Notes under the pieces: model-generated | The model's input: only the letters and a program-made list of their open reading frames with translations | Database searches by the model: none | Told to the model about the DNA's origin: nothing | Position numbers and translations under genes: made by a program | Origin: a virus | Reading direction: 5' to 3' (one strand) | DNA length: 28,872 nt | IMG/VR virus record: IMGVR_UViG_3300043446_003869 | Coordinates: 1-28,872 of that record | Shown here: piece after piece, positions 1,802 through 22,807 of the stretch | Layout: each line of letters begins with the position of its first letter | Position numbering within the stretch: position 1 is the first letter of the stretch

Positions 1802-2104
1802 GTGCCCTTGAGGGAACCGGTATCGCCCGTGGAGCCAGAACAGACGAGCGCGGCCGAGCCTCGCAGATTCAGCAAGGTTCAAGTCCTTGAAGCAACTGCT
1901 GCAGCTGTTCTTGCAGCCGCGATCTTGGGTACGGCAACTGGAATGACATGGCTTGTCATTTCACTTCCGAACGAGCTGCAAAAGATGAAGGAGCAGATTA
2001 ACCTAATCATCCAGAACCAAGCTGCGTTTGGACAGCAGTTCAACGAACTTAGGGAACAGGTCAACGAACACGATCGCCGTCTTATCAAGCTTGAACTGAA
2101 ATGA
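1802..2104 (+). CDS. Small membrane protein with C-terminal coiled coil, possible lysis protein
   Basis: A 100-residue protein with a GTG start, 15 nt after the chaperone gene. The first 28 residues are hydrophilic. Residues about 30-54 (ATAAAVLAAAILGTATGMTW onward) form one transmembrane helix. Residues about 58-99 (LQKMKEQINLIIQNQAAF..LREQVNEHDRRLIKLELK) form a heptad-like coiled coil. A single membrane helix followed by a long coiled coil fits an inner-membrane spanin or an XhlA-like haemolysin/holin accessory protein, and this position after tail genes is usual for lysis cassettes. No endolysin is next to it, so the role stays tentative. Its last codon overlaps the next gene (ATGA), so the two are probably translationally coupled. 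Confidence 0.6.
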   Translation: MPLREPVSPVEPEQTSAAEPRRFSKVQVLEATAAAVLAAAILGTATGMTWLVISLPNELQKMKEQINLIIQNQAAFGQQFNELREQVNEHDRRLIKLELK

Positions 2105-2391
2105 AGTTCTCTGGCCTTGGTGGTGCGATTGCTGCAATTGGCAGCGTTGTTAATTCCGCCGCTAATGTTGGACTTGCGGTTGGCATTGTTTATCTGATCG
2201 ACTGTAGATCGCTGTCTAAGCAAATTGAGCAGATCAACAGCTGCTACTTTACGGCGCTCCCGATCATGGGAATAAGCGGGGCCGCGAAAGGTGGATTCAG
2301 CATTGGCTACGCAACGTACAATCCGGCCCTTAAGCGGGAGGATGAAAAAATCCAGCAACGAGCTGGAGACGCAATGGGAGGCCGATCATGA
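2101..2391 (+). CDS. Small membrane protein, holin-like
   Basis: A 96-residue protein whose ATG overlaps the previous stop (ATGA). Two hydrophobic stretches are visible: residues about 5-33 (GGAIAAIGSVVNSAANVGLA..IVYLID) and about 48-68 (FTALPIMGISGAAKG.FSIGYA). They are Gly/Ala rich with a short loop between them and a charged C-terminal tail (KREDEKIQQRAGD). Two short membrane helices with a charged tail is a common holin layout, and the flanking genes are also small membrane proteins. I recognise no family. Coding is supported by the exact overlaps at both ends (ATGA at 2101 and at 2388). Confidence 0.55.
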   Translation: MKFSGLGGAIAAIGSVVNSAANVGLAVGIVYLIDCRSLSKQIEQINSCYFTALPIMGISGAAKGGFSIGYATYNPALKREDEKIQQRAGDAMGGRS

Positions 2392-2687
2392 TTCTCTTCA
2401 ACCTGTTTATTGCCTTTTTGTCAATCGGCTTTGCCGAGGCAGTTGTAAAGCCGTTGGCGAAGCGCTTTGTTGAGCGTCGGATTCGTGCAGTCGCTCCGAT
2501 GGTCCTGGGGGAGCTGGACAGGCGTCTTCCCCAGCTACTGGAGGCCGGTGGCCGGGAGGCGATCGAGAGCCTGGTGGCGAGCGAGCTGGAGGCCGCTACA
2601 GGCCAGGTAGTGCGCCGTGGGGACGTAGAGAGGATCTTCGCCCTGTTCGACCCGAGGATCGCGGCGGATCATCTGCAGAGGGGCTAA
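2388..2687 (+). CDS. Membrane-anchored hypothetical protein
   Basis: A 99-residue protein whose ATG overlaps the previous stop (ATGA). Residues 1-22 (MILFNLFIAFLSIGFAEAVV) form an N-terminal membrane anchor or signal-like helix. The rest is a charged, probably helical domain (KRFVERRIRAVAPMVLGELD.., then SLVASELEAATGQVVRRGDVERIF). Third-codon GC is clearly higher from about 2480 onward than in the upstream genes, a local composition change that continues to about 2900. It is the last gene of the left plus-strand run and is followed by an imperfect hairpin. No family recognised; the context suggests a lysis or membrane accessory protein. Confidence 0.55.
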   Translation: MILFNLFIAFLSIGFAEAVVKPLAKRFVERRIRAVAPMVLGELDRRLPQLLEAGGREAIESLVASELEAATGQVVRRGDVERIFALFDPRIAADHLQRG

Positions 2688-2719
2688 GCCCAGGAGCCTG
2701 TGGGGGCTGTGTCCTGGGC
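2688..2719. other. Hairpin after the left gene run, weak terminator candidate
   Basis: GCCCAGGA at 2688-2695 pairs with TCCTGGGC at 2712-2719 around a 16-nt loop, which itself contains AGCC and GGCT. It begins at the base after the TAA stop at 2685-2687. No T-run follows, so if it terminates transcription it is not a classical intrinsic terminator. Confidence 0.35.
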
Positions 2720-2951
2720 CGCCATCCCGCCCGTCCAAGAGCGCTCTGGAAGCTTACAGCAGCGTTGGAGGGGCCGGACAATGAATCCGACCCCAACCGC
2801 GCGGCGCCAACCTTCTGCGAGCTGGACTTGTACCGTGGGGTTCACCTTCTGAGCCAGCTGCAGAAACAGGCTCAGCGCACGGGATGCAGAGCGACTCGTC
2901 AGCCGCCCGCGACCAGAAAATACTACAGCACTGCAGACAGAGGCGACGGTG
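2720..2951. other. GC-rich stretch with no decidable gene
   Basis: Two plus-strand readings both look partly protein-like. One is a TTG-start frame at 2765-2998 (start PDNESDPNRAAPTFCELDLY, then LLSQLQKQAQRTG). The other, in the frame of the upstream gene, is open from 2688 to its stop at 2850-2852 (SWAAIPPVQERSG.., MNPTPTARRQPSASW). Both have high third-position GC and neither has a ribosome binding site or known motif. The minus-strand frame covering this area looks like low-complexity antisense. It may be a short gene or a decayed one; I cannot choose. Confidence 0.3.
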
Positions 2952-3299
2952 CTAGTCGTCGTACTCGCTCCAGTCGTCAATTCTCTTCACTGGTTTGAGC
3001 GGTGGCCACCAGCCAGTGCGTGCAGGCTGCGAGCTATTGATTTTTCTGCTGCAGTTGCGCCAACCGGCAACTGTAAGCCAGCGTTCAACCTCGCGCTTAT
3101 GCTCCGGCCAGGATTTACTTGGTATTTCAAGCGCCAACTGAATTTCAGAAATCTTTACCGGGATTCCATTGTTAGACCATCTAACCTCAAGAAAGCGCTT
3201 GAGTCTCGACCTTAATGGATTGAGTTGACGCACTGGGCGCGGAGGCGCTTTGTATCCGGGCGGCAGCTCGGTTACAGCAAGATTTGGCTTGCGTGGCAT
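2952..3299 (-). CDS. Small basic protein, winged-helix-like, divergent from the primase-like gene
   Basis: A 115-residue protein on the minus strand, divergently oriented to the primase-like gene at 3455. The N-terminus is Pro/Arg/Lys rich (PPGYKAPPRPVRQLNPLRSRLKRF). The middle alternates helices in a way that fits a small winged helix: LKRFLEVRWSNNG, VKISEIQLALEI, EHKREVERWLTVAGWRN. The end is aromatic and acidic (TGWWPPLKPVKRIDDW, then SEYDD). No family is recognised. A basic DNA-binding-like protein transcribed away from a replication gene is a common regulator or initiator arrangement, but this is inference. A TGC-TAGATA extended -10 lies just upstream (3315-3323, minus). Confidence 0.6.
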   Translation of the reverse strand: MPRKPNLAVTELPPGYKAPPRPVRQLNPLRSRLKRFLEVRWSNNGIPVKISEIQLALEIPSKSWPEHKREVERWLTVAGWRNCSRKINSSQPARTGWWPPLKPVKRIDDWSEYDD

Positions 3300-3314
3300 T
3301 TGTAGCTGGCGGGG

Positions 3315-3323
3315 TATCTAGCA
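3315..3323 (-). promoter_or_regulatory. Extended -10 for the minus-strand gene at 3299
   Basis: Read on the minus strand, TGC precedes TAGATA (plus positions 3323 down to 3315), giving a TGn extended -10 with a start about 8 nt before the ATG at 3299. No good -35 is visible at 17 nt. It sits back-to-back with the plus-strand promoter at 3330-3358. Confidence 0.35.
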
Positions 3324-3329
3324 GTGTAC

Positions 3330-3358
3330 TTGCAGCTTCTGCGCCACTGCGATAGACT
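3330..3358 (+). promoter_or_regulatory. Sigma70-type promoter of the primase-like gene
   Basis: TTGCAG at 3330-3335 and TAGACT at 3353-3358 are separated by exactly 17 nt. The expected transcript has a leader of about 90 nt that ends in the hairpin at 3424-3443, just before the start codon at 3455. Confidence 0.5.
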
Positions 3359-3423
3359 GGCTACCAGCTGCCCTGAATGGGGTGGGGGACCAGGATCCAC
3401 CTCCTGAATCCCCCCTTTCGGTC

Positions 3424-3443
3424 GAAGTGATGGGGATCACTTC
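3424..3443. promoter_or_regulatory. Perfect 8-bp inverted repeat in the leader of the primase-like gene
   Basis: GAAGTGAT (3424-3431) and ATCACTTC (3436-3443) are exact reverse complements around GGGG. The repeat ends 11 nt before the ATG at 3455, where a ribosome would bind. It could be an operator for a dimeric regulator (for instance the divergent gene product or the HTH protein at 5738) or an RNA hairpin that controls translation. Confidence 0.5.
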
Positions 3444-3454
3444 ACACTGACCGG

Positions 3455-5137
3455 ATGAGCGTCACTACCACGCTCCCTCCCACTTTAATGGGTTCTCAGG
3501 ATGACTGGCAAGAATCTCCCCCAGAGTGGCCCGAGGAATGGCTGCGACTCGGGGATCCCTGCGAGGAAAGTTTTGAGCAGAGCTATTCGCTCGCCGCTGA
3601 CGCCAAAGATGAAAAAGGCCTTCAATTTAGAGTAATTGATAAAGAGCTTAAGCGCGAATATGAAAAGCTGCTTGGCTCGGCCTTTAACACAAGCTGTCTA
3701 AACTATATCTACAAGAAGGCTGGTGCCGATTGGCTCTCTGGATGGCACCCACTGTCATTTTCTCAGATTGCATTCCGAGCCGCTTCTGATGATGCGGAGA
3801 TTATTGGAGTCAGGCATGAGCGGCAAGTAAGGCTTATCGTCGTTGACATCGACAATAAACCCAAAAAGACAAGTAAATACTGGCACCCACTCGGCAAAAG
3901 CAAAGAACTGCTGAGACTGCAAGAAGTTGCCGAAGACTGCGGTTGCAAGGTTGACTTCGTTGTCAGCAGCAATTCTGGTGGGCTACACGTCTACATCGCC
4001 CTGCCGGAGTGGACCCATGCCTTCCGTGCTCACTGGATCGGCCGTGCGCTTCTCCAGAGGGCCTGGATTGCCCCAGGAGCAGGCCAGGCCGAGCTGTTCC
4101 CCAGCGAGATGCCCTTCCATGACGGAAGCCCCTCTCAGCGGCCCATGAGCAACGGGTTCCGCCTCCCCGGTCAGGAGGGTTCAGCCCTGGTGGTTGGCGA
4201 TCGAACCATCACCCATCCGGTCCTGATCTTGCAGCAACTGCAGAGTGCTGTAGAAGAGGCGCAGAGCTGCCTGAACTTCAAGAGGCTGGTATCCCAGGCC
4301 GATAGCTTGCGAAAGCAAAGCAAGCGGTGCAGCAAGGTGTCCAACGGGATTTCTGAATTCAAGCGCTCGTCTGGCAACGTTGAATGGACTGGCCCAAGTC
4401 AAAGCAATAAAAACATTGGCCTGCTGACAACGCAAGCGAGGCTGCGCTGCAAGCCCGAGACACCAGATAGACTTGCAGCCATCGTTGAGCAGCTTGCCAT
4501 TGAGTCTCCTGGATTCAATGAGCACGCTTCCGATCACACAAAGAAGATCCTGACCAGTTGGTGCAAAAGCTGGGCTAATTGCTCGTTCAGAAGAGGCTGG
4601 AACGCAAACGGAAAAACAGTAAAAGTTAAGGCGAGTGCAGATAGCAACCGCAATGAAAGACTTTTCAATGCAAGTCGCGAGCGTTTACGCAACCTGTTCA
4701 GCAAGATGAAAGATGCAGCAGCGGGCCTGAGCAAGAACCAGGTCAGGCAGCTCCTCAGCATGGGCTGGGCAACCGTCCAGAAGCACTGGGAATACTGGCT
4801 TCAGCTGCTCCAGGGAGAGGTTCACCATACCCCCCTCTATAAGGGGTGTGAGCACCGGAACCCCGGAACCCCCCAGCAGGAGGAGCAGGCAGCAGCAGAA
4901 CCTGCAAGATTTTTCGAGCAAAAACTGCAAGAAAGTCGGGATATTTTTGAAAAAACGTTCAATAGTTCACCGGATAGAAGGTATTTAACGCACGAGGAGC
5001 TGATAGATATGTCAACGCAGTGGATGATGGATGACGATCTGCCAGATTTTTTGCGAGATGATGTGACCGCATCAATCCCTGAGGGCTCTCCCGACTTCGA
5101 TTTAGAGCCGGGCACCCTCAGGTCAGTGATGTCGTAA
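3455..5137 (+). CDS. Archaeo-eukaryotic primase (AEP/TOTE-like) domain protein
   Basis: A 560-residue protein. Residues about 75-250 carry the AEP primase-polymerase core: RLIVVDIDNK with the DxD metal-binding pair (D131, D133), SSNSGGLHVYI with the catalytic-type His178, a following AELFPSEMPF acidic/hydrophobic strand (E213), and NGFRLPGQ (about 233-240). This pattern matches TOTE-type and plasmid/phage AEP primases, which make primers or copy DNA. Residues about 330-470 are helical and basic (PETPDRLAAIVEQLAIESPG, later a Lys/Arg-rich stretch) and may be a helicase-binding or PriCT-like part. The tail (about 480-560) is acidic. No helicase Walker motif is present; DnaB is encoded separately at 10898. 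Codon use is GC-rich in 4010-4300 against its surroundings. The AEP call is by motif only. Confidence 0.65.
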   Translation: MSVTTTLPPTLMGSQDDWQESPPEWPEEWLRLGDPCEESFEQSYSLAADAKDEKGLQFRVIDKELKREYEKLLGSAFNTSCLNYIYKKAGADWLSGWHPLSFSQIAFRAASDDAEIIGVRHERQVRLIVVDIDNKPKKTSKYWHPLGKSKELLRLQEVAEDCGCKVDFVVSSNSGGLHVYIALPEWTHAFRAHWIGRALLQRAWIAPGAGQAELFPSEMPFHDGSPSQRPMSNGFRLPGQEGSALVVGDRTITHPVLILQQLQSAVEEAQSCLNFKRLVSQADSLRKQSKRCSKVSNGISEFKRSSGNVEWTGPSQSNKNIGLLTTQARLRCKPETPDRLAAIVEQLAIESPGFNEHASDHTKKILTSWCKSWANCSFRRGWNANGKTVKVKASADSNRNERLFNASRERLRNLFSKMKDAAAGLSKNQVRQLLSMGWATVQKHWEYWLQLLQGEVHHTPLYKGCEHRNPGTPQQEEQAAAEPARFFEQKLQESRDIFEKTFNSSPDRRYLTHEELIDMSTQWMMDDDLPDFLRDDVTASIPEGSPDFDLEPGTLRSVMS

Positions 5138-5241
5138 GCTTTGCGTACCCAGCTTGCCAAAAGCCATCGGTGATGCTTAAATTGTTCAATGGGTCGCTCA
5201 GGCGAACCACCCAAGCTAAAACCTGTTTTCAGTAAATACCG

Positions 5242-5619
5242 ATGAAACGAGCGGTGCGTGCCTCTAAAGGCTTTGGAAATCCGAGCAATGCAAGTAAGGC
5301 TAGGGATGAAGGATTGGCGATGCACCGTAATATGATTGAGAACTTGGCTGCTGAGCTTGATGCAATTTTTCGGCTGGCCTATGAAAAGCTTGCTGCCATG
5401 TCAGCTCAGGGTGTCAAGCCGGAAATTCTTCAAGATCTGCCATGTTTTGGGCATATGCTGCTTGAACTTGAGATTCACCCTGATAAAGGCCCGGAGATTT
5501 GCGTTAATCGCTCGGATCGCCCGGAAGTCGTTGGATACTGGTACGCGCCAGGCCATCAATACAATCCACTTCCAGCCGACAAAATATGCTGGCCAACTTT
5601 TCTTGAGGATTTATGCTGA
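5242..5619 (+). CDS. Hypothetical protein
   Basis: A 125-residue protein following the primase-like gene after a 104-nt gap that contains no other gene. The frame is chosen over an overlapping one (5336-5641) because it reads like a folded protein: NLAAELDAIFRLAYEKLAAM (helical, about 32-51), then a C-terminal part with aromatic and Pro residues (YWYAPGHQYNPLPADKICWP). Two start options exist: ATG 5242, used here, or ATG 5320 (AMHRNMIENL region), which would drop a basic Ser/Lys-rich leader. No domain is recognised. Confidence 0.55.
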   Translation: MKRAVRASKGFGNPSNASKARDEGLAMHRNMIENLAAELDAIFRLAYEKLAAMSAQGVKPEILQDLPCFGHMLLELEIHPDKGPEICVNRSDRPEVVGYWYAPGHQYNPLPADKICWPTFLEDLC

Positions 5620-5667
5620 CGGACTCCACGCTTGGCGTTAGGCACGGTGGACCAGCAGTGCTAGCGC

Positions 5668-5693
5668 TTGCAGGTTGCCATCCATGGTAGAAT
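5668..5693 (+). promoter_or_regulatory. Extended -10 promoter upstream of the HTH gene
   Basis: TGG-TAGAAT at 5685-5693 is an extended -10. TTGCAG at 5668-5673 lies only 14 nt upstream, shorter than the usual -35 spacing, so the promoter probably relies on the TGn element. The predicted leader of about 38 nt contains the hairpin at 5701-5717. Confidence 0.5.
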
Positions 5694-5700
5694 CTGGACT

Positions 5701-5717
5701 GCCCTCGTCTTGAGGGC
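5701..5717 (+). promoter_or_regulatory. Leader hairpin before the HTH gene
   Basis: GCCCTC (5701-5706) pairs perfectly with GAGGGC (5712-5717) around GTCTT. It lies between the -10 and the GTG start at 5738 and has no T-run directly after it, so it is more likely a leader structure than a terminator. Confidence 0.45.
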
Positions 5718-5737
5718 TTCCAACCAACTACAAAATC

Positions 5738-6481
5738 GTGTCCAAAGCGTATCAAGAGGTACTCGATCGCCAGCTGGAGTCTCGTAAGGCTTTTGGCAGG
5801 ATGATGCTCAACTGGCGACTTTCTAATGGTTGGACTCAGTACACAGCCTGCAAGTGGGCTAAGGAAGCTGGCTTTGAAACCATCTCCTATGGCAATCTGT
5901 CAGTTCTTGAGCAGGGAAAAGCTGGCGAGCTTCGCCAAAAGGCTTTCTTCCAGCTTTATGAATTAAATCGCAGATTGGCTTGGCAAAAAGATCTCACAAA
6001 GATAAGCGACATCAACCTGCGATCACTTATCGAAAAAGCAAGACCAATAGAATGCGATGACAATGGAATTTGGGGTGCTGTAGATTTCTGGAAATGTTAC
6101 ACCGGATTCATTGAGGTGCCCTACCGCTACAGGTCTTCTCCAGCTCCGCTTATTTCGTCAAAAAGGGCTGCAGAACTCTGTAACAAGTGGCGCTTGCACA
6201 CCCAGGAAGTGCTCAAGCGGAGAGGCGGCGTATTCACAGAATCCATCTCTGCTCTTGTCGATCAAGCTCCACAAAAAGATAGAGAGCGATTTTCAGCCGT
6301 TCTACTTTTTGATAATTACACCCCCGAGGAGTTGCAGTTGCTTTGGGTGGATGGTAAATACAAGCCTGAAATATGGATTAAAGAGTGGGATGGAACAGCA
6401 CTATTGGAACGGCTAAAATCAAGTGGTCAACTGGCTAACAGCTCGCGCCTGAACGGAGGCGATCACCGGCGGCCAGCATGA
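5738..6481 (+). CDS. Helix-turn-helix (XRE-like) DNA-binding protein
   Basis: A 247-residue protein with a GTG start. Residues about 18-77 have an XRE-like HTH layout: FGRMMLNWRLSNGWTQYTAC (helix 1-2), then AKEAGFETISYGNLSVLEQG as turn and recognition helix, and KAFFQLYELNRRL as the packing helix. The remainder is an unrecognised alpha-rich region with two Trp-rich patches (GIWGAVDFWKCYTGFIEVPY and EEWIKEWDG-like end), perhaps a dimerisation or ligand domain. It has its own promoter and leader hairpin, so it is probably separately controlled. A transcriptional regulator role is inferred from the HTH; the operator could be the inverted repeat at 3424 or sites elsewhere. Confidence 0.6.
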   Translation: MSKAYQEVLDRQLESRKAFGRMMLNWRLSNGWTQYTACKWAKEAGFETISYGNLSVLEQGKAGELRQKAFFQLYELNRRLAWQKDLTKISDINLRSLIEKARPIECDDNGIWGAVDFWKCYTGFIEVPYRYRSSPAPLISSKRAAELCNKWRLHTQEVLKRRGGVFTESISALVDQAPQKDRERFSAVLLFDNYTPEELQLLWVDGKYKPEIWIKEWDGTALLERLKSSGQLANSSRLNGGDHRRPA

Positions 6482-6507
6482 AACCCTGCAAGGCCAAGGC
6501 TTGCCTC

Positions 6508-6537
6508 TTGTGCGAGTCTTGGGTTTTGTGGTATATT
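6508..6537 (+). promoter_or_regulatory. Extended -10 promoter upstream of the GRTTR gene
   Basis: TTGTGC at 6508-6513, an 18-nt spacer, and TGG-TATATT with the -10 at 6532-6537. The leader is about 38 nt and includes the hairpin at 6546-6558. The promoter lies inside the longer open frame that starts at 6501, so the true gene start must be the downstream ATG at 6582. Confidence 0.55.
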
Positions 6538-6545
6538 GTGATTGC

Positions 6546-6558
6546 CCCGCCTTGCGGG
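6546..6558 (+). promoter_or_regulatory. Leader hairpin before the GRTTR gene
   Basis: CCCGC (6546-6550) pairs with GCGGG (6554-6558) around CTT; G6544 and C6559 can extend it with one bulged base. It lies 23 nt before the ATG at 6582, the same relative place as the hairpin before the HTH gene. Confidence 0.4.
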
Positions 6559-6581
6559 CCGCAAATCTCAACTCTACTTAT

Positions 6582-6917
6582 ATGAACCGTCTTACTGATT
6601 TGAGGCGTACTGGTCGCACAACCAGAATGGTTAAACGCGCTGGATTGGCAGCGCTTGATGGTCGCGCTGTCTACATTATCTGCGCCTCCGCAAAAGAGGA
6701 GTCGCGCATTGAGCACCTTGTTGAAAAGCTTGGCTATGGAAATCTTGGCATCAAAGTCGAAACTCAAGCAGGTCTACCTAATTTTGACTGGCAGACAATG
6801 ACGCTTTGTGGTGCCCATCCAAACTGCAAAGTATTTGTTGACCACTATGCAATTGAGGCTAGATTTAGCCGTATACTTACTGAGCTTCATCGCTATGACG
6901 CGGACCCCTCATCATGA
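6582..6917 (+). CDS. GRTTR-motif phage protein (putative nucleotide-binding)
   Basis: A 111-residue protein. The ATG at 6582 is chosen because the promoter for it overlaps the upstream in-frame extension. Residues about 5-17 read LRRTGRTTRMVKR, a GxTTR motif seen at the N-terminus of many small phage proteins and resembling a degenerate Walker A loop. It is followed by a hydrophobic strand (RAVYIICAS) and later KVFVDHYAIEARF, which could be a Walker B-like strand ending in Asp. This beta-alpha order fits a minimal P-loop fold, but a classical GK[ST] is absent, so ATP binding is uncertain. It ends the plus-strand run and faces the convergent sigma operon. Confidence 0.55.
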   Translation: MNRLTDLRRTGRTTRMVKRAGLAALDGRAVYIICASAKEESRIEHLVEKLGYGNLGIKVETQAGLPNFDWQTMTLCGAHPNCKVFVDHYAIEARFSRILTELHRYDADPSS

Positions 6918-6957
6918 TTCGGTGATCGGAAGGGTACGCTAAGCTATTCGCAGCACT

Positions 6958-6979
6958 CATCAGGGCTGCAGGCCTGATG
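6958..6979. terminator. Hairpin in the convergent intergenic region
   Basis: CATCAGG (6958-6964) pairs with CCTGATG (6973-6979) around 8 nt. It lies after the plus-strand gene ending at 6917 and could stop plus-strand transcription together with the larger stem at 6992-7035. No T-run follows. Confidence 0.4.
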
Positions 6980-6991
6980 GACGCTCCCGCC

Positions 6992-7035
6992 AAAGCCCAG
7001 GATTCGTCTCCACTCAGGCGCGAATCTTGGGCTTT
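6992..7035. terminator. Strong 15-bp stem between convergent gene runs
   Basis: Positions 6992-7006 (AAAGCCCAGGATTCG) pair with 7021-7035 along 15 bp with a single G-T wobble, around a 14-nt loop. The ends read AAAGCCC and GGGCTTT, so the stem is flanked by A and T on either strand, as in bidirectional terminators. On the minus strand it encloses the stop codon (7014-7016) of the small gene downstream of sigma. Confidence 0.6.
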
Positions 7036-7172
7036 GTGCTAGCTTGCTTTTGTGGCACGACGATGCTGGAAATGTCCGGTGCGTCCTTCCACTTTCCAGG
7101 CTCAAGGTCCAGCCCGTTCATTCCTTGAGAGTCGGCCCTGGTAAAAAGTCCGCCGTAACGGGACGGTGGCAA
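7014..7172 (-). CDS. Small hypothetical protein at the end of the sigma operon
   Basis: A 52-residue frame on the minus strand, starting with TTG 4 nt after the sigma factor stop. It reads like a real protein: PPSRYGGLFTRADSQGMNGL, then DLEPGKWKDAPDISSIVV and a basic tail (QKQASTKPKIRA). An in-frame ATG at residue 18 is an alternative start. The close spacing to the sigma gene and the terminator stem over its stop codon support it as the last gene of the operon. No family is recognised. A small protein co-transcribed with a sigma factor could be an anti-sigma or co-activator, but nothing in the sequence shows that. Confidence 0.55.
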   Translation of the reverse strand: MPPSRYGGLFTRADSQGMNGLDLEPGKWKDAPDISSIVVPQKQASTKPKIRA

Positions 7173-7176
7173 CTAC

Positions 7177-8115
7177 TCAGCCGTCAGGCGCGGTAAAAGT
7201 TGTAACGATATATCGTATCTTTGCTGTAGCCTTTTGATATCTCTCCTTTGCTGCTTGTACTGTTAGGCCCGTTGCTTCGGATAGCTCCTTGAAATTGGTT
7301 GGCTCACAACCAATTCCATGTCTCCTTGTGACAAGCTCTCTGTCAATTGGCTCAAGTGCTTGAATTGCAAGCATGATGAAGTTCAGCTTGCTGGTATCTT
7401 CCTCTTCGCTTTTCGCTTCTGCGTAGCCGTCGCCAGTCAGATCTGACAGCGTGAAGAAAGACCGATCTCCCGTCTCTACCCACTTGTCAATCCATAGGAT
7501 CGCGGGTGACATGAGGAAGTGCATTGAGATGATGCTTCTGAGCTTTTCGTGATCAGCCTCTCCCATCTGATCGGAAAGCTCCTTGAAGTTTGGTTCTCTG
7601 CCAAGCTTTGCTGCAAGCCGAATCCTTATTTCACCAGCCCTGCGTATCAGGCGCTGCAGGTGAGCTGGGAGCTTGATGATGCCTTCCTGGGCTTCACACC
7701 CCCTTGTCATTCCCTGCTTTATCCATAGATACGCATACGTCGAAAACTTGTAGCCCCGTGCTGGATCAAACTTCTCAGCAGCTCTTGTAAGTCCGATAGC
7801 ACCTTCTTGAATTAAGTCCTGCATTGTCATGTGGACTTGCTTGTTGACGTACTTTTTGGCTATCGCAACGACGAGTCTCATATTGGCTGAAACCATGCGA
7901 TTTCTCGCTTTGATTCCAAGTCTTACAAGCCGCTTCTCGTCTTGATTCAGCTGCTGCAGCGCTTCGTCAATATTGCTCGCCGATAACTGATAGCCAATTC
8001 CATGCGATTCAAGCATTCTGATCATTGCCTGGACCCTATTGCCAAGCACGATCTCTTCTTCGCTTGTCAACAGTGGCACTCTGCCAATATCCTTCAAGTA
8101 GTCCTCGCATGTCAT
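7177..8115 (-). CDS. Sigma70-family RNA polymerase sigma factor
   Basis: A 312-residue protein. The ATG at 8115 is chosen because it overlaps the thyX stop (ATGA) and begins with region 1.2 (YLKDIGRVPLLTSEEE, about 6-21). Region 2 is at about 71-142: NRMVSANMRLVVAIAKKYV, then MQDLIQEGAIGLTRAAEKFD (core binding) and YKFSTYAYLWIKQGMTR (-10 melting and recognition). Region 3 begins at IIKLPAHLQ (146-154). Region 4 ends with ALEPIDRELVTRRHGIG and NFKELSEATGLTVQAAKERY (about 274-293). The usual recognition-helix signature TRERVRQIE is replaced by TVQAAKERY, so -35 preference may differ from the host factor. It resembles cyanobacterial group 2 factors in layout and length. It probably directs RNA polymerase to phage promoters and is co-expressed with thyX and dcd. 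Confidence 0.92.
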   Translation of the reverse strand: MTCEDYLKDIGRVPLLTSEEEIVLGNRVQAMIRMLESHGIGYQLSASNIDEALQQLNQDEKRLVRLGIKARNRMVSANMRLVVAIAKKYVNKQVHMTMQDLIQEGAIGLTRAAEKFDPARGYKFSTYAYLWIKQGMTRGCEAQEGIIKLPAHLQRLIRRAGEIRIRLAAKLGREPNFKELSDQMGEADHEKLRSIISMHFLMSPAILWIDKWVETGDRSFFTLSDLTGDGYAEAKSEEEDTSKLNFIMLAIQALEPIDRELVTRRHGIGCEPTNFKELSEATGLTVQAAKERYQKATAKIRYIVTTFTAPDG

Positions 8116-8831
8116 GGTGCAAGCCTCGCTTTGCCGTAGCGGGTGGTCTTGTACCAGGCTGCAACTTCTGGCGACCATTTTTCGAGATGTGGCCACATCA
8201 GATCGCAAAGTTGCCGAATCTCAAGCTGCGCATCCAACTTGGCGCGAAGATCCAAGAAGTGCAGGAAAGCTCTGAGCGTAAAACTAACTACAAAATGTTG
8301 GCGATAATCAAATGGTAAAATGCCGCGTGCGTGCTCTTCTGCAAATCCGTCAAGAATTAACTCGTAATATCTGTTAGCGGCCTCTTTGCAGAGTGCTAGA
8401 TCTTTGTTTCTCTGACTCTCTGTGTAGTGATACTTTTTTCCATTTCTATCCGAATAGTATCCAGCTGGCCTTAGGTAAAAAACTTCTTCAATAGCAAGTT
8501 CTTCGTTGGCTGCTTTGCAGATTCTGTCACCCGTGTAACGCATACTCTGAACATCAAACGAGACTCCGATTCTGTGAGTTCTCGCCTGTTGCATCACTGA
8601 ATGCGGGAACCAGCCAACATTCAAAACAATTTGAACGTGCTCCAGTGGTCCGTAGTGCCCTCTTTCTCCTGCTAGCAAGCGCTTGATGATGATTTCGCCA
8701 GCCCTTGATTCATCGGGCCATTCCTCAGCTGCTACAAATCCCTCCGAATAATCTTGGTGCATTCCGCACCAGATCGCCCGGTTTGGCTCCGGCGTTCGTG
8801 TGATCAGTGAAACCCGGAACCGTGGATCCAT
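8112..8831 (-). CDS. thyX: FAD-dependent thymidylate synthase ThyX
   Basis: A 239-residue protein that methylates dUMP to dTMP using methylene-tetrahydrofolate with FAD and NADPH. The ThyX signature is at about 84-99 (RTHRIGVSFDVQSMRYTG), in the variant form used by cyanobacteria and their phages, with the conserved Arg-His-Arg, Ser and terminal Arg. The GHYGPLEHVQIVLNV block (58-72) supplies the substrate-binding His/Glu. FTLRAFLHFLDLRAK (184-198) is the C-terminal conserved Leu-Arg/Arg motif. YLRPAGYYSDRNGKKYHYTE (about 119-138) is an insert also familiar from cyanobacterial ThyX. Length is normal. It lies between dcd and the sigma gene, whose start overlaps its stop. With dCTP deaminase it gives a dCTP-to-dTMP supply route for phage DNA synthesis. 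Confidence 0.93.
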   Translation of the reverse strand: MDPRFRVSLITRTPEPNRAIWCGMHQDYSEGFVAAEEWPDESRAGEIIIKRLLAGERGHYGPLEHVQIVLNVGWFPHSVMQQARTHRIGVSFDVQSMRYTGDRICKAANEELAIEEVFYLRPAGYYSDRNGKKYHYTESQRNKDLALCKEAANRYYELILDGFAEEHARGILPFDYRQHFVVSFTLRAFLHFLDLRAKLDAQLEIRQLCDLMWPHLEKWSPEVAAWYKTTRYGKARLAP

Positions 8832-8910
8832 AGCAGCAGAAAAGGGGTGGACAGCGACCGAAGCCTACTTAGCCACACCCCTTGCCGTCAATCTTCAAGC
8901 TGTCTTAACG

Positions 8911-9516
8911 CTAAACCCTTGCCGTGACAATCCTCCGTGGCTGATTCTGGTACTTTCCGTTCCTGTCCTCGTAGGTTGTATCGCAGGGTTCACCTTCAAA
9001 AAAGAGAAGCTGACAGATGCCCTCGTTCACATAAATACGACAGTCGGCACTACTTGAGTTGCTAAACTCAAGTGTCAGATGTCCCTTCCAGGCCGCCTCT
9101 GCAGGAGTTGTATTCACAATGATGCCCACTCTTGCATACGTGCTCTTCCCGAGACATATAACAGTGATGTTACTCGGAACTTTTAGTTTTTCCACGGCAA
9201 CACCAAGCCCGTAAGAATGCCCCGGAAGAATATAAAACACCCCATCTTCATCTGAATGAAGACTTGCCCGCTCAAGATTTAATGGGTCAAATCGCTTTGG
9301 ATTCACTACCGAGCCTGGAATCCTGTGAAATACCATGAACTCGCTTGCTGCAAGTCGAATGTCGTAGCCATACGAAGAGCATCCGTAGCTAAGCACATTT
9401 CGATTTACAGTTGCTCCGTCTAGTGTTGCCTCAACTTTGCGTACTAGGCTTGGCTCAAACGGGGAGATCATGCCAGCGGCGGCCTGCTCCTTGATCCAGC
9501 GATCGTTCTTAATCAT
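8911..9516 (-). CDS. dcd: dCTP deaminase
   Basis: A 201-residue protein that converts dCTP to dUTP, feeding dUMP to ThyX. Conserved Dcd/dUTPase-fold motifs are present: SYGCSSYGYDIRL (43-55), the active-site GKSTYARVGI (123-132), TTPAEAAWKGHLTLEFSN (136-153) with E140 as the likely catalytic Glu, and the C-terminal GKYQNQ. The start at 9516 (MIKNDRWIKEQ) is preferred over the ATG at 9552 because it lies one base after the upstream stop (TGATATG) and matches the usual family N-terminus; the longer form would overlap the upstream gene by 35 nt. No separate dUTPase is seen here, so the enzyme may be bifunctional or may rely on the MazG-like protein; this cannot be told from motifs. Confidence 0.9.
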   Translation of the reverse strand: MIKNDRWIKEQAAAGMISPFEPSLVRKVEATLDGATVNRNVLSYGCSSYGYDIRLAASEFMVFHRIPGSVVNPKRFDPLNLERASLHSDEDGVFYILPGHSYGLGVAVEKLKVPSNITVICLGKSTYARVGIIVNTTPAEAAWKGHLTLEFSNSSSADCRIYVNEGICQLLFFEGEPCDTTYEDRNGKYQNQPRRIVTARV

Positions 9517-9517
9517 A

Positions 9518-9808
9518 TCAGATGGGGAGTTGGAGTTGACGACGGTTTCCACCGCTCACTTCTGACAGAAGGTTTCTGGTTGATAGGTGCAGCTTGGGAA
9601 CAAGATACACATCTCCGTCAACTTCGCACAGATAGTGCGGAAATGGTGCATCTACCTTGGCGATTCCAACAATACGCAAAACCCTGTCGCCGTGGTAGCG
9701 TGCATAAACTGCATCGCCAACACTGAGTTCAGTTGTCTGGACGGTTGGCTTGCCCTCCGGAAATCGTTTCGGTGTTAGTTTTTTGGGGCTTGGCTTGACT
9801 GGCTCCAT
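9518..9808 (-). CDS. SH3-like-fold hypothetical protein, first gene of the sigma operon
   Basis: A 96-residue protein. The N-terminal 30 residues are Pro/Lys rich (MEPVKPSPKKLTPKRFPEGK). The centre (about 31-76) alternates short strands in the manner of an SH3/KOW or Tudor-like barrel: TTELSVGDAVYARYHGDR, VLRIVGIAKV, HYLCEVDGDVYLVPKLHL. The ATG at 9808 is used because a good promoter (-10 at 9835-9840, minus) overlaps the longer alternative start at 9835, which would place that start before the transcript begins. It is followed after one base by dcd. Similar small barrels in phages bind nucleic acid or proteins, but no function is claimed. Confidence 0.55.
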   Translation of the reverse strand: MEPVKPSPKKLTPKRFPEGKPTVQTTELSVGDAVYARYHGDRVLRIVGIAKVDAPFPHYLCEVDGDVYLVPKLHLSTRNLLSEVSGGNRRQLQLPI

Positions 9809-9834
9809 GGCACTTGCTGGTTGGCGCGATCTCA

Positions 9835-9862
9835 TTATTACAGATTGCGGCGACTCTTGCAA
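9835..9862 (-). promoter_or_regulatory. Promoter of the dcd-thyX-sigma operon
   Basis: On the minus strand TTGCAA (plus 9862 to 9857), a 16-nt spacer and TAATAA (9840 to 9835), preceded by TG. The transcript would begin near 9828, about 20 nt before the ATG at 9808, and run through the small barrel protein, dcd, thyX, sigma and the 52-residue gene to the stem at 6992-7035. Confidence 0.55.
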
Positions 9863-9916
9863 CAAGCTCAGCAGTTGTGGCTCACATTGAGGCTCGCGTG
9901 TCCCCCTGGTCCGGGG

Positions 9917-9945
9917 TTGACGCCACCGAAAGCAGGTGCTACCTT
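9917..9945 (+). promoter_or_regulatory. Promoter of the replication operon
   Basis: TTGACG at 9917-9922, exactly 17 nt, then TACCTT at 9940-9945 preceded by TGC (extended -10). The leader to the ATG at 9972 is about 20 nt. It is divergent from the promoter at 9835-9862; the two start sites are roughly 120 nt apart. Confidence 0.5.
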
Positions 9946-9971
9946 TCTGCAAGCATCCGGCTTCGCAGCCC

Positions 9972-10175
9972 ATGGCAAAGAGAAACATTTACATTCCAGA
10001 CAGGCTTTATGGCTCCATGGCATCAGAGGCGGAAAGGCGTGGTATCAGCTTCTCTCACGCTTGCTCTCTTGCATTTATGAACTGGTTGAACGGACTGAAA
10101 CGCCAGGAGCCAACAAGCGACGATTCAGCCAAAAATCAATTGGCTGAGAAAAAAGACCCCAGCGAGATTCGCTGA
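9972..10175 (+). CDS. Small ribbon-helix-helix-like DNA-binding protein
   Basis: A 67-residue protein starting at ATG 9972, downstream of the promoter at 9917-9945. Residues 2-10 (AKRNIYIPDRLY) form a short beta strand typical of the first segment of MetJ/Arc/CopG proteins. Two helices follow (YGSMASEAERRGISFSHACS and LAFMNWLNGLKRQ) separated by a Gly-Ile-Ser turn. The C-terminal 20 residues are hydrophilic (TSDDSAKNQLAEKKDPSEIR). RHH proteins bind DNA as dimers through the strand. Its place at the head of the replication operon and next to the divergent promoter pair suggests an autoregulator. The fold call is by pattern only. Confidence 0.6.
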   Translation: MAKRNIYIPDRLYGSMASEAERRGISFSHACSLAFMNWLNGLKRQEPTSDDSAKNQLAEKKDPSEIR

Positions 10176-10205
10176 GGCCCTGCCCAACCAACCTGGGAAT
10201 TCTAC

Positions 10206-10901
10206 ATGGTAGATGACGCTACTGGCAAGCAATTCAGCGGGCCGCTGTTTTCAGCGCGTCCGGTAAAGCGCAATTTCACGCTCATTTCAAACAATGCACT
10301 GCACGATCCCCGCCTAAGTCTCGCAGCCAAGGGTGCCCTCGCAGTTTGCCTTTCTGGAGGTGAACTTTTTAGCAAGGAGTGGCTGCTTTCTGCCAGCAGG
10401 GATAGTTCACCTTCTGTTAGCAATGCCCTCAAGGAATTAGCCAAAGCTGGCTACCTGAAGATCTTCATTCAAGGCGACTCAAAGCACTATCACTTTGTTG
10501 ACGAGCTGGATGATCTCAAGCAGCAGCATCTCTCCATGCTCACCCCGGCATCCCCAGCAGCCCCCCAGGAGCGCAGGCGGAAGCGCCAGGCGGCATCGAC
10601 GCAGCTTCAGCTGTCGGACTGGCTGGAGCCCCATAGGGAGGCTCTGGAGAAGTGGCTGGATCAGCGGGCCAAGGCCCACCCGAGGCTCCCGAGGGAGGTC
10701 AGCGGTCGTTCGATGACAGCACTTCTATACGCAAAGGAATGTGATGTTCTTGGCGATTTCTGCGAGCTTGCGAGTGAAGCAACATGGCAGTCACTAGGAT
10801 TCAATGGTTTCAAGGGTTATATCAACAAACTCGTCGAAGACAAACAGCCAGCCAAATCTGGTAAGCCAGCCATGTCCGCTATCAACTATACGCTGAGATG
10901 A
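10206..10901 (+). CDS. Phage replication initiator / helicase loader (winged-helix, DnaD-like)
   Basis: A 231-residue protein. Residues about 22-95 match the winged-helix start of many phage O-type or DnaD-like replication proteins: RNFTLISNNALHDPRLSLAA, KGALAVCLSGGELFSKEWLL, then SPSVSNALKELAKAGYLKIF (recognition helix and wing). A Pro/Ala/Arg-rich linker follows (about 112-135), encoded by a GC-rich stretch. The C-terminal part (about 165-220) is helical (SMTALLYAKECDVLGDFCEL, WQSLGFNGFKGYINKLVED) and may contact the helicase. It overlaps the DnaB helicase gene (ATGA at 10898), the standard initiator-helicase pairing. It probably binds the origin and loads DnaB. No DnaC-type ATPase is seen, so this is the best loader candidate. 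Confidence 0.7.
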   Translation: MVDDATGKQFSGPLFSARPVKRNFTLISNNALHDPRLSLAAKGALAVCLSGGELFSKEWLLSASRDSSPSVSNALKELAKAGYLKIFIQGDSKHYHFVDELDDLKQQHLSMLTPASPAAPQERRRKRQAASTQLQLSDWLEPHREALEKWLDQRAKAHPRLPREVSGRSMTALLYAKECDVLGDFCELASEATWQSLGFNGFKGYINKLVEDKQPAKSGKPAMSAINYTLR

Positions 10902-12349
10902 CGAAAGGGACCAATGCTCGACCTCAAAAAACCCTTGAAGATCTCCTCTCTGGAATCAAGACCTGGGATACCGATGAATTTGAAATCTCATTCCTGTCAA
11001 CAATCTGCTTTCTGCTTGAAGGTGACGCAAAGGAGGATGATGTTCAGGCGCTAATGAGAATCTTTACGGTTCTTGACGAGAACTGGTTTACTCAGCCTCA
11101 TAGAAAGGCCATCTTCTTCGTTGCTAAGAAGATCTTTTCTGGCACGTCTAAATCACAATTTCTTCTTCCTGGCAGCATCGGCATGATGGCTATGCAGATG
11201 CTGAAGTTGCGCGGATATAATCAAGAGTGCGAGTTTGTAGAGTCCGCGGTATCTTCTCCGTCTATTTTTTATTCAATTGAAAGCCTTGAGTCAATCCTTC
11301 CCGTCTGGCGCATCAAGCTAGTTAGGCGAGAGATGATTTCCAGCTCAGAGCAGATGCTGGATATTTTTAATGATCAGCCAGACGTATCAATAATTCTTGA
11401 CAAGGTTCCAAAGCTTATTGAAGCTCAGCAGGAAACATGGAGCAATCTTTTTGTATCCACAAAAAAGGCCGATGATTGGAATTCATCTGTTGATGAACTT
11501 CTTTCTCCCCTGCCTGAGAACGTTGCAATTAGCACTGGCTTGCGAGTTCTTGACGATGCCATACAGGGTGGCATTGCATCCAGGAACTCGCCCTATTCCG
11601 GCAGATTGATCATCGTTGCAGCAAGACCTGCAATGGGAAAAAGTACGATTGCTATCTCTCTTGCAACACAGCTTGCCGATTCGCACGGCGATGTCGCTTT
11701 CTTTAGCCTTGAAATGTCAAGAACGCAAATTCAATACAAGGCTATCTCATGTTATGACTACATGAATCTAAGCATGTCCAAGAACCTTACGAATCCAATT
11801 CGATCAAACAACCTGAGACTCAGGAGTTATACGGCTGATCAGCGCCAAAGGCTTGAGAGCTATCGTGATTCTCCGTTCGTTAAAAGATTTCACATCTATG
11901 ACTCAGCGGAAAGTATCAACACTATCTCAACAAAAGTTGCGCTACTGGCAAAGACAAGATCAAAGCTCTCGGCTGTATTCGTTGATTATCTTCAGTTGAT
12001 CGAAGGCTGCTCGGGCGACGCGAACAACACCGAAGCGTCAAACATCGGCCATGTAACCAGGGCTCTCAAGCAGCTTGCTGTCAGGACTGGCATTGACATC
12101 TTTCTGCTGAGCCAAGTCAACAGGGGTGTTGAAAGCAGGAATGATAAGATGCCGACGTTATCTGATCTTCGCGCCTCGGGCCGCATTGAAGAAGATGCTG
12201 ATATTGTTATGTTTCTGCTAAGGCCCTGTTACTATGATCCTCAGAAAGATCCCTACGAATTAGCGATTAGTGTCGCTAAGAACCGCCATGGAACTTGTGG
12301 GATTCTGCAGTGCGCGATAGATCTGCAAAGCTCAATCGTTTTTGACTGA
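10898..12349 (+). CDS. dnaB: Replicative DNA helicase, DnaB family
   Basis: A 483-residue protein, the normal size for DnaB, that unwinds DNA at the phage replication fork as a hexamer. The RecA-like C-terminal domain has Walker A ARPAMGKST (about 242-250), the following FFSLEMS (268-274), Walker B SAVFVDYLQLI (358-368), H4 LLSQVNRGVESR (403-414) and the arginine-finger area SDLRASGRIEEDADIV (422-437). The N-terminal domain (about 25-120) is diverged from bacterial DnaB but still helical. Its ATG overlaps the initiator stop. An exact ISTGLRVLDDAIQGG lead-in (211-225) is the usual start of the helicase domain. Function is well supported by motifs. Confidence 0.95.
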   Translation: MTKGTNARPQKTLEDLLSGIKTWDTDEFEISFLSTICFLLEGDAKEDDVQALMRIFTVLDENWFTQPHRKAIFFVAKKIFSGTSKSQFLLPGSIGMMAMQMLKLRGYNQECEFVESAVSSPSIFYSIESLESILPVWRIKLVRREMISSSEQMLDIFNDQPDVSIILDKVPKLIEAQQETWSNLFVSTKKADDWNSSVDELLSPLPENVAISTGLRVLDDAIQGGIASRNSPYSGRLIIVAARPAMGKSTIAISLATQLADSHGDVAFFSLEMSRTQIQYKAISCYDYMNLSMSKNLTNPIRSNNLRLRSYTADQRQRLESYRDSPFVKRFHIYDSAESINTISTKVALLAKTRSKLSAVFVDYLQLIEGCSGDANNTEASNIGHVTRALKQLAVRTGIDIFLLSQVNRGVESRNDKMPTLSDLRASGRIEEDADIVMFLLRPCYYDPQKDPYELAISVAKNRHGTCGILQCAIDLQSSIVFD

Positions 12350-12365
12350 ACCTTGCGCAGAATTG

Positions 12366-12602
12366 ATGGCTGAACTCAACAGGTCAAATTGCCCAGACTG
12401 GTCGGCAATCTTCGCCGAACGCCCCGATCTTGAAGCCCCTGGCTACCAAGAGGCTCTTAAGTCAGTTCGCGATCAAAAAAATAGGGCCGAGATCGAGAGA
12501 ATCAAGGCTCAGATGCAAGAAATCAAGAAACAGAAGATAAGCTCTAAGAACAAAAATAGAACTCAGAACAAGAAGAGGTCAGCCTTGTCGAATGGCCAGT
12601 AG
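12366..12602 (+). CDS. Small basic coiled-coil protein after dnaB
   Basis: A 78-residue protein from ATG 12366; a TTG at 12342 overlapping the dnaB end by 8 nt is an alternative start giving 86 residues. Residues about 9-32 (NCPDWSAIFAERPDLEAPGY) look folded. The rest is one long charged helix (DQKNRAEIERIKAQMQEIKK) with a Lys/Asn/Gln-rich tail (SSKNKNRTQNKKRSALSNGQ). No domain is recognised. From about 12560 another frame also looks protein-like, so the true C-terminus may differ by a frameshift (see findings). A basic tail suggests nucleic acid contact, but this is inference. Confidence 0.5.
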   Translation: MAELNRSNCPDWSAIFAERPDLEAPGYQEALKSVRDQKNRAEIERIKAQMQEIKKQKISSKNKNRTQNKKRSALSNGQ

Positions 12603-12809
12603 ATGATCTTCCGCATCAACGATCATCGGCGCCAGAAGCGGAAGACACTGCGGAGCATTTTCAAGAACCGTTCGGCGAATCTTGGCGATGTCCGCAAGAA
12701 CTGCACAAACCTGCTCTGGAATCTTCACAGAATTTTCCACGTCGAATCAACCGAAGAATGTAGGCGCCGACTGGCTTATGGCCATCTCGCCCTGGCCCAT
12801 CCACGGTAG
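12603..12809 (+). CDS. Possible small basic protein, uncertain frame
   Basis: A 68-residue frame whose ATG directly follows the previous TAG (TAGATG), in the same frame. Composition is strongly basic (RINDHRRQKRKTLRSIFKNR, then LLWNLHRIFHV). Third-position GC is high, as in some neighbours. Competing readings of the same DNA are protein-like too: a frame from 12560 (VEWPVDDLPHQRSSAPEAED) and one near 12760 (GADWLMAISPWPIHG). I list this one because it has a proper start, but coding here is not secure. Confidence 0.3.
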   Translation: MIFRINDHRRQKRKTLRSIFKNRSANLGDVRKNCTNLLWNLHRIFHVESTEECRRRLAYGHLALAHPR

Positions 12810-12824
12810 CTGCGGCGCCTGCTG

Positions 12825-13157
12825 CTACCAGTTCGGTTCTTCCTCGTCCTCCTCAATGATTTCTGGTTCCAGCAGTTGCTCAAGCGATTTCAGCTCTATG
12901 GCATTGAAGTCGATCGGCGGCATCGGCATTCTCCTGACAGCTTTCTTGCTTGTATCTGCACCGGTTAGGCCGTGTGTCTCCTGATACCGCTGATGCCACT
13001 TGCGAATCATGGCCGGGGCGACGAAGCCCTGCAGCAGATTCATGACGCTTGCAGGATCCTCGCCTTTCTCAAACAGCAGGTTGGCCGTGGTCCGCAGTAT
13101 CCGATTCAGGTTGCTTCCACCAGCTGTTGACACTGTTGCTTTTCGGCTTCTGGACAT
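12825..13157 (-). CDS. Hypothetical protein with acidic C-terminal tail (antisense to neighbours)
   Basis: A 110-residue protein on the minus strand between the dnaB and rad52-like runs. The ATG at 13157 is used because the longer frame to 13268 lies within the rad52-like gene. The N-terminus is basic (MSRSRKATVSTAGGSNLNRI). The centre is helical (LRTTANLLFEKGEDPASVMN, then VAPAMIRKWHQRYQETHG). The end is highly acidic and closes with EEDEEEPNW, somewhat like the acidic tip of single-stranded DNA-binding proteins. No domain is recognised. Its start codon overlaps the promoter of the rad52-like gene on the other strand, so expression of the two may exclude each other. Could be a small regulator; not shown. 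Confidence 0.55.
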   Translation of the reverse strand: MSRSRKATVSTAGGSNLNRILRTTANLLFEKGEDPASVMNLLQGFVAPAMIRKWHQRYQETHGLTGADTSKKAVRRMPMPPIDFNAIELKSLEQLLEPEIIEEDEEEPNW

Positions 13158-13165
13158 GGTAGTAT
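13136..13165 (+). promoter_or_regulatory. Promoter of the recombination operon
   Basis: TTGCTT at 13136-13141, 18 nt, then TGG-TAGTAT with the -10 at 13160-13165. The leader to the ATG at 13198 is about 26 nt. The element covers the start codon (13157-13155) of the minus-strand gene, so the two genes share this short region. Confidence 0.5.
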
Positions 13166-13197
13166 GACGGAGGTGTAAGCCCCCAGCCATCAAGCCA

Positions 13198-19573: not shown

Positions 19574-19598
19574 TTGCAGGTTCCCGGCCTGCTAGGAT
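19574..19598 (+). promoter_or_regulatory. Extended -10 promoter candidate
   Basis: TGC-TAGGAT (-10 at 19593-19598) follows TTGCAG at 19574-19579 by 13 nt. The weak -35 spacing is like that at 5668-5693, which also begins with TTGCAGGTT. The leader to the ATG at 19621 is about 16 nt and includes GGAG as a possible ribosome binding site. Confidence 0.42.
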
Positions 19599-22366: not shown

Positions 22367-22785
22367 ACTCAAATCAACTCGCTACGTCTACCACCTTCCA
22401 AGAGCGCATGTTTCAGCGTGTGCGTGAAAGCCTTGGTGAACTTCTTACGGAAGAAGAGGCCAAGGCTCTTGTTGATCGCGCAATTGATGAAGGCCTGTTC
22501 AAAAGAACAATTGAAAGGGGGTACGGCTATAACGGGAGAGAAGTTGAAAAGCCGTCAATGTTTGAATTGATGGTAGCCGAAGAGGTCAAGCCGATGATCA
22601 AGGAAGCAGCTGAGAAATGGATCTCCGAAAACAGCGAGGAGGTCAACAGGCTTATTCGCGAAATCATTGAGCAGGGAATCACTGGCATCCTCTCAAGGGT
22701 TATTACCGAAGCTTTCAGGCAGCCTCTTTATCAGCTGCAGGGAAATCTCGCTCAGGTCATTAGCAAAATTGGAGGTATCAATTGA
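22363..22785 (+). CDS. Helical hypothetical protein
   Basis: A 140-residue protein with an ATGA overlap with the previous gene. It is almost entirely helical and charged: FQERMFQRVRESLGELLTEE, AKALVDRAIDEGLFKRTIER, then VAEEVKPMIKEAAEKWISEN and IREIIEQGITGILSRVITEA. No metal or nucleotide motif is seen. It may oligomerise. Its stop codon overlaps a TTGACA hexamer (22782-22787). Confidence 0.6.
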   Translation: MNSNQLATSTTFQERMFQRVRESLGELLTEEEAKALVDRAIDEGLFKRTIERGYGYNGREVEKPSMFELMVAEEVKPMIKEAAEKWISENSEEVNRLIREIIEQGITGILSRVITEAFRQPLYQLQGNLAQVISKIGGIN

Positions 22786-22807
22786 CAAATTATCAACTTG
22801 GTATTCT
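22782..22807 (+). promoter_or_regulatory. Weak promoter candidate
   Basis: TTGACA at 22782-22787 and TTGG-TATTCT with the -10 at 22802-22807 are 14 nt apart. The perfect -35 and the TGn element argue for a promoter; the short spacing argues against. It would serve the 31-residue frame at 22834 and the coiled-coil gene at 22922. Confidence 0.33.

Follow-up and report, generated by a model that had tools for sequence, protein, structure and literature searches.

Cyanobacterial promoters of type 2 consist of a -10 element alone, and the excerpts of PMC2758279 describe an artificial -10-only promoter that was used in vitro by SigD and not by SigA. The same excerpts present the SigB-preferred lrtA promoter, whose -10 comes with extended TGTGn and GC sequences described as resembling those that RpoD and RpoS recognise. 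In E. coli, C(-13) is recognised by Lys173 of RpoS, and RpoD has Glu458 at the same place (PMC6719511, in part). Among phages, T4 reads late promoters that have no -35 with gp55 and gp33 (PMC2988020, in part), and a cyanophage without gp55 or gp33 has been described (excerpt of PMC5780444). Several cyanosiphoviruses, namely S-CBS1, S-CBS3, KBS-S-2A, S-LBS1 and P-SS2, carry an RpoD-like or group 2 sigma. The authors of the P-SS2 study expect its group 2 factor to read canonical promoters (PMC2784084, in part), and the divergence of the S-LBS1 sigma sequence has been noted (PMC6157547, in part). Among the literature matches listed, judged by titles and abstract openings and drawn mostly from outside the subscription literature and the original S-CBS papers, there was no report of a rewired region 4.2 in cyanophage sigmas. 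The main text of PMC11119718 mentions neither phage, virus, region 4 nor recognition helix.

Here we analysed the sigma factor encoded by a cyanophage sequence, an IMG/VR virus record of 28,872 bases (the window). Phage replication genes for a DnaB-like helicase, an annealing/repair protein, an exonuclease and a single-stranded DNA-binding protein (SSB) are found in the same stretch. The start codon of the sigma gene overlaps the stop codon of thyX (ATGA), and the genes for dCTP deaminase, thyX and sigma therefore likely form an operon (Table 1). Between convergent genes at 6991-7037 lies a long inverted repeat, CAAAGCCCA...TGGGCTTTG, which may serve as a terminator for the sigma genes. Elsewhere in the window, at 20884-20985, a 30-nt sequence occurs twice with a spacing of 72 nt and 97% identity, within small overlapping ORFs.

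Table 1. Features of the sigma locus and promoter-like sites in the window
Feature	Position	Strand	Basis or remark
Phage sigma-70 factor, 312 aa, cyanobacterial RpoD-like	7177..8115	minus	ORF; Pfam, NCBIfam
Region 1.2, residues 5-30	8026..8103	minus	Pfam PF00140, 3.9e-10
Region 2, residues 74-139	7699..7896	minus	Pfam PF04542, 1.2e-17
Leu130, place of sigma70 Trp433	7726..7728	minus	Alignment
Arg155, place of sigma70 Glu458 / RpoS Lys173	7651..7653	minus	Alignment
Region 4, residues 250-301	7213..7368	minus	Sub-cut-off Pfam match; helix-turn-helix model
Altered recognition helix TVQAAKERYQKA, residues 285-296	7228..7263	minus	Alignment to E. coli RpoD
thyX	8112..8831	minus	Pfam Thy1 1.5e-41; immediately 5' of sigma gene, same strand
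dCTP deaminase	8911..9552	minus	Pfam DCD 2.3e-21; same strand as sigma
TTGCAG-N14-TAGAAT, promoter-like	5668..5693	plus	G005 has TTGTAG-N14-TAGAAT
TTGACG-N17-(TGC)TACCTT, promoter-like, before replication genes	9917..9945	plus	Conserved in G005 and G007
TTGCAG-N13-TAGGAT, promoter-like	19574..19598	plus	Conserved in G005
TTGACA-N14-TATTCT	22782..22807	plus	Overlaps end of predicted gene

Pfam matches to regions 1.2 and 2 place the protein in the sigma-70 family; region 2 of these factors binds core polymerase and melts the -10. Region 4 scored 18.6 bits against a Pfam cut-off of 24.1, in a match spanning positions 1-49 of 50. It was modelled by AlphaFold as a helix-turn-helix (helices 256-266, 275-282 and 286-307) with a pLDDT of about 90, the whole-chain pTM being 0.52. 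The top NCBIfam family was cyanobacterial RpoD TIGR02997, at 211.5 bits and below the curated cut-off of 384.5, and the RpoS family TIGR02394 gave 144.6 bits against a cut-off of 378.7. Among the PDB matches listed for the model, the best were mostly SigA chains, with a different domain arrangement (TM to query of 0.39-0.50 and rmsd of about 23 in the best 50 rows). Eight viral contigs from eight different metagenome ids carry the same sigma at 75-98% identity; a first scan of genome contigs matched 13 stretches, none of them a relative of the sigma.

The recognition helix of region 4.2 departs from the TRERVRQIE type and reads as the first-pass annotation gave it. Canonical group 1 and 2 factors have R584, E585 and Q589 here, and the phage sigma has V, Q and E (R584V, E585Q and Q589E relative to E. 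coli RpoD), with loss of the E. coli -35 contacts. The helix reads TVQVAKERYQKA in five of eight relatives and APQVIRERQQ(R/L)A in the other three; since these relatives come from eight metagenome ids and also have replaced helices, a sequencing error is unlikely. The triple is absent as well from relatives at 75-77%, 48% and 44% identity, each of which has Gln585.

Comparison of the window, L006 and L008 gave a mean identity of 1.00 for region 2, which is invariant, and of 0.61 for the recognition helix. For region 4.2, pN/pS was 0.046 between the window and L001 and 0.105 among L006, L007 and L008, where the recognition helix alone gave 0.032. Over the whole family, that is between subclades, region 4.2 gave 0.316 versus 0.012 for region 2, and in the S-LBS1 clade the helix gave 0.449 versus 0.321 for region 2, values to be read in the light of a helix of only 12 codons and of synonymous sites near saturation in the wider comparisons. 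On these ratios the helix is under constraint inside subclades and yet outpaces the rest of the protein between them. The alteration is neither unique nor plain decay. Two relatives have particular arrangements: adjacent sigma genes in G017 (L310:405-1388 and L310:1489-2496) have the helices LSREKLQSIEK and TNEQAIRRRQQ, and the sigma gene of G020 adjoins a 305-aa ORF (L309:528-1445) that looks glycoside hydrolase-like by eye.

Two surveys of viral sigma factors covered the best 80 loci each (160 in all, a biased sample), of which 152 had a full sigma and eight partial ones were left out. With named phages added and identical proteins merged (169 to 146 rows), 140 viral sequences formed 56 clusters at 70% identity. 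The R584/E585/Q589 triple is kept in 24 of these 56 clusters and not in 32, counts that follow from the best-80 selection and are not a census. An alignment with cyanobacterial group 2 sigma factors had been suggested in the first-pass annotation as a check; all 15 host sigmas scoring over the cut-off in three cyanobacterial genomes keep the triple, and the phage helix differs from them. In a tree built without region 4, phage sigmas sit beside host group 2 and the helix state changes 11 times, at least five of these changes being forced by well-supported branches. Removal of the host group 3 sigma and of the very long P-SS2 branch gave 10 changes, four of them forced; both trees are quick ones with many open forks.

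Regions 1.2, 2 and 3 had been annotated as close to sigma70. This needs correcting at two positions. Trp433 of sigma70, a key residue in -10 opening, is Leu, and Arg stands where sigma70 has its reader of the extended -10, Glu458 in region 3.0. Leu occupies the 433 position in all nine family sequences, and Trp is found there in the G020 and G017 relatives. The near-invariance of Trp433 in our surveys is partly an artefact, many loci having probably been retrieved with the peptide YAYWWIRQ, and is not evidence of conservation. Arg155 is a basic residue at the position of RpoS Lys173.

To our knowledge, late-gene timing in cyanophages outside the T4 group has been little studied. The 86-kb relative G005 carries head, portal and terminase genes, and the label of late genes used here rests on gene content. 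Upstream of 24 of its 48 late genes, those with a gap of at least 25 nt upstream, we found the motif t.GCTA.aaTtt with a log-likelihood of 58.1, as compared to 38.0 or less in 12 mononucleotide-shuffled sets (25 motif finder starts per shuffled set and 120 for the real data). Thirteen of the 20 assigned sites end 17-25 nt before the start codon. The late-gene box of the relatives is C(-13)TANNNT; it lies some 22 nt ahead of the start codon and mostly has no -35. Searching all upstream regions gave a mixture of motifs, and GCTA..aTtt ranked first in G005 alone. In a per-contig search run with no shuffled control, the GCTA box came top in G017 and G015 and second in G016, and was absent from the three motifs listed for each of G020, G019 and G013. 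All 12 phages or contigs examined had G[CG]TANNNT more often at 15-32 nt from the start than at greater distances upstream, several of the counts being small. Upstream of genes, TGNTANNNT occurred 13 times in G005 (3.4 in shuffles) and 7 times in the window (1.6 in shuffles, 5 on the antisense strand); its 6 occurrences in G007 were not significant against 3.5 in shuffles.

A minority of these promoters have a -35. When 58 sites were pooled, none of the columns upstream of -18 stood out from background at p<0.01, and T(-15) is not favoured (17/58). Seven of the 58 match TTGACA at 5 of 6 positions at 16-18 nt (1.6% at random positions), TTG at spacers 16-18 was seen 12 times for about 4 expected, and the mean best -35 match was 2.90 versus 2.34. 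Four of the seven 5-of-6 sites read TTGACG, and three of these are one orthologous replication-gene promoter in the window (9917..9945), G005 and G007, which we infer to be a host-type early promoter. The excess is gone when near sites are compared with far TANNNT sites (9/95 near vs 7/80 far), and at 14 late sites of G005 the best -35 match averaged 3.14 versus 2.84 at random. A scan of window positions 1-20000 for TTGACA-N16-18-TATAAT returned 15 sites, with 14.0 expected from shuffles. A -35 class, probably early and read by host sigma, thus coexists with a larger -10-only class.

The first-pass annotation had proposed that the factor may need only -10 or extended -10 contacts, a reading that would fit extended -10 motifs with poor or misplaced -35s. 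Promoters of a -10 type, most of them lacking a -35, do exist, as seen from the G005 motif and the 58 sites. The extended -10 (TGn) sense of the proposal is not supported by the positional test, with T(-15) not enriched near starts and Arg in place of Glu458, even if TGN boxes do occur. In 13 contigs of phages with a canonical helix, the best -35 match was 2.60 in 88 near sites and 2.62 in 61 far ones, a comparison that is weak both ways in that many near sites need not be promoters. Since canonical-helix phages show no more -35 signal, the missing -35s are not attributable to the helix. Region 4.2 itself does not look dispensable, given its constraint within subclades and its confidently modelled helix-turn-helix.

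The three promoter sites on which the proposal drew all exist as sequences, but their conservation differs. The sites at 5668-5693 and 19574-19598 have counterparts in G005, with 82% and 84% identity around them, and were looked for in G007 without success; the site at 22782-22807 has no significant match in either G005 or G007. At 19573-19604, the -10 TAGGAT is flanked by the inverted repeat CTTGCA/TGCAAG, which is perhaps an operator; its TTGCAG and TGCAAG parts are present also in G005.

We compared the letters preceding TANNNT between near sites (15-30 nt from starts) and far sites (40-100 nt), using deduplicated sites on whole contigs and p-values that treat sites as independent. The window lineage was represented by nine contigs, of which G013, G015, G016 and G019 lack a sigma gene and were placed in it on the strength of shared late genes; contig G034 was excluded because its 458 residue was not assignable. 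In this lineage C(-13) is present at 55 of 95 near and 24 of 104 far sites (p=6e-7), the preference of RpoS-type promoters, here a statistical one of predicted promoters only. T(-15) is found at 22/95 near versus 35/104 far sites, and T(-15) with G(-14) at 12/95 versus 17/104. In 15 contigs of Glu458 phages, C(-13) is not enriched (39/103 near vs 33/84 far), T(-15) stands at 21/103 versus 18/84 and G(-14) at 48/103 versus 27/84 (p=0.05). Near sites of the lineage and of Glu458 phages differ in C(-13) at p=0.007.

Widening the near window to 12-34 nt gave 59/108 versus 24/104 for the lineage (p=3e-6; p=0.024 versus Glu458 phages). With a far window of 38-74 nt, the signal was present in the five contigs whose own sigma was verified to have Arg or Lys at 458 (42/79 vs 16/71, p=2e-4) and after removal of G005, the contig of motif discovery (48/79 vs 15/70, p=1e-6), and p stayed at about 0.001 or less when any one of the nine contigs was left out. 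Neither Asp458 phages (six contigs, C(-13) 20/47 vs 19/56) nor Gln458 phages (nine contigs, 14/38 vs 9/38, p=0.32) show a significant C(-13) or T(-15) preference, and the residue-base code is thus not general. Two earlier signals, a T(-15) preference of Glu458 phages (27/60 vs 9/61, p=3e-4) and a C(-13) signal of Gln458 phages (p=0.017), were gone on the deduplicated whole contigs, with the values given above. Since the Arg458 phages amount to a single lineage, the joint occurrence of residue and box counts as one event, and the link between Arg458 and C(-13) is a correlation that fits known biochemistry and is not replicated. C(-13) is found also in the TTGACG promoters, which host sigma should read, and the box could be a host habit.

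The sequences show that the core-binding and -10-melting part of the protein is kept, that residue 458 is Arg or Lys as in RpoS, and that the recognition helix was exchanged for others, which the subclades have since maintained. Two promoter-reading parts of the sigma have apparently been changed to suit promoters that mostly lack a -35. Our preferred explanation, which we hold with about even confidence, is that a working phage sigma-70 derived from cyanobacterial group 2 would take host RNA polymerase for phage genes, mainly late ones, at RpoS-like, -10-only late promoters. The sigma would be active, with Arg155 reading C(-13) as RpoS Lys173 does and region 4 still docking on the beta flap, where it may hold on to DNA farther upstream, or to a partner from the phage, with no reading of TTGACA. 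This would steer the holoenzyme from -35-dependent promoters to phage -10-only promoters, and late 5' ends would fall 6-7 nt downstream of GCTANNNT boxes. More tentatively, and with considerable doubt on our part, cyanophage sigmas may have been freed repeatedly from the TTGACA code by independent rewiring of region 4.2 in several phage lineages, the window lineage converging on the RpoS solution and gaining a one-polypeptide late switch from -35 to -10-only promoters without T4-type accessory parts.

The -10-only promoters might instead be transcribed by host SigA, with another, minor role for the phage sigma. Start-proximal G[CG]TANNNT boxes (15-32 nt) do occur in S-CBS1 (4), S-CBS3 (2) and KBS-S-2A (6), whose sigmas are canonical, and their -35 match does not exceed the chance level (13 sites, 2.15 vs 2.41; the same holds in the 13 canonical-helix contigs). 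The excerpts of PMC2758279 report that SigA also takes part at type 2 promoters, which speaks against our preferred explanation. However, SigA could not use the artificial -10-only promoter in vitro according to these excerpts, and C(-13) enrichment is significant only in the window lineage; we regard this alternative as rather unlikely.

The two remaining alternatives are partly compatible with our preferred explanation, and their probabilities overlap with its own. A rewired helix could read a new, lineage-specific -35-like element, as would fit a helix that is kept within subclades and differs between them; CTTGCAGGT lies 13-14 nt before TAGRAT at two window sites with G005 counterparts. 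The shared TTGCAG element was considered as such a phage -35 and is kept as a rival only. This arrangement is confined to those two promoters of the window and G005, intergenic TTG[CT]AGG with TANNNT 13-14 nt on was found in none of G007, G020, G016, G017, G015 and G019, and the 58 aligned sites have no column beyond chance upstream of -18, which makes a new element unlikely in our view. Region 4 could also have become the place where a co-activator of the phage, or a protein tracking along DNA, docks, similar to T4 gp33 with the sliding clamp. Late promoters mostly lack a -35, region 4.2 is kept within subclades though no general -35 is seen, and T4 gp33 occupies the site of sigma domain 4 and reads no DNA (PMC2988020, in part). 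The model of region 4 is nevertheless that of an ordinary helix-turn-helix, and we consider a dedicated docking site improbable.

If our preferred explanation is true, residue 458 and helix 4.2 would help predict the promoter type of a phage sigma from its sequence, and phage sigmas would constitute a set of natural mutants in which to ask how region 4 acts where there is no -35 to read. The closest family, the cyanobacterial group 2 sigmas (SigB-SigE; TIGR02997), shares regions 1.2 and 2 with the phage sigma and is its top NCBIfam match, but the phage protein scores below the curated cut-off and its helix is altered, whereas every host member examined is canonical. With E. coli RpoS it shares the basic residue at the Lys173 position, and the promoters of its lineage share the C(-13) box; unlike the phage sigma, RpoS has the TRERVRQ helix, and the RpoS family score falls short as given above. 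Among cyanosiphoviruses, P-SS2 likewise has dnaB, dcd, ssb, exonuclease and thyX-type genes. The sigmas of S-CBS1, S-CBS3 and KBS-S-2A have a canonical helix and Glu458, unlike that of the window, and those of S-LBS1 and P-SS2 have other altered helices; in our alignment region 4 of P-SS2 is unlike the canonical one, and this sigma aligns poorly. Finally, T4 gp55 with gp33 likewise represents a phage sigma that serves late promoters lacking a -35 (PMC2988020, in part), but the T4 sigma domains are divided between two proteins, whereas the window sigma has region 4 on the same chain by both Pfam match and model.
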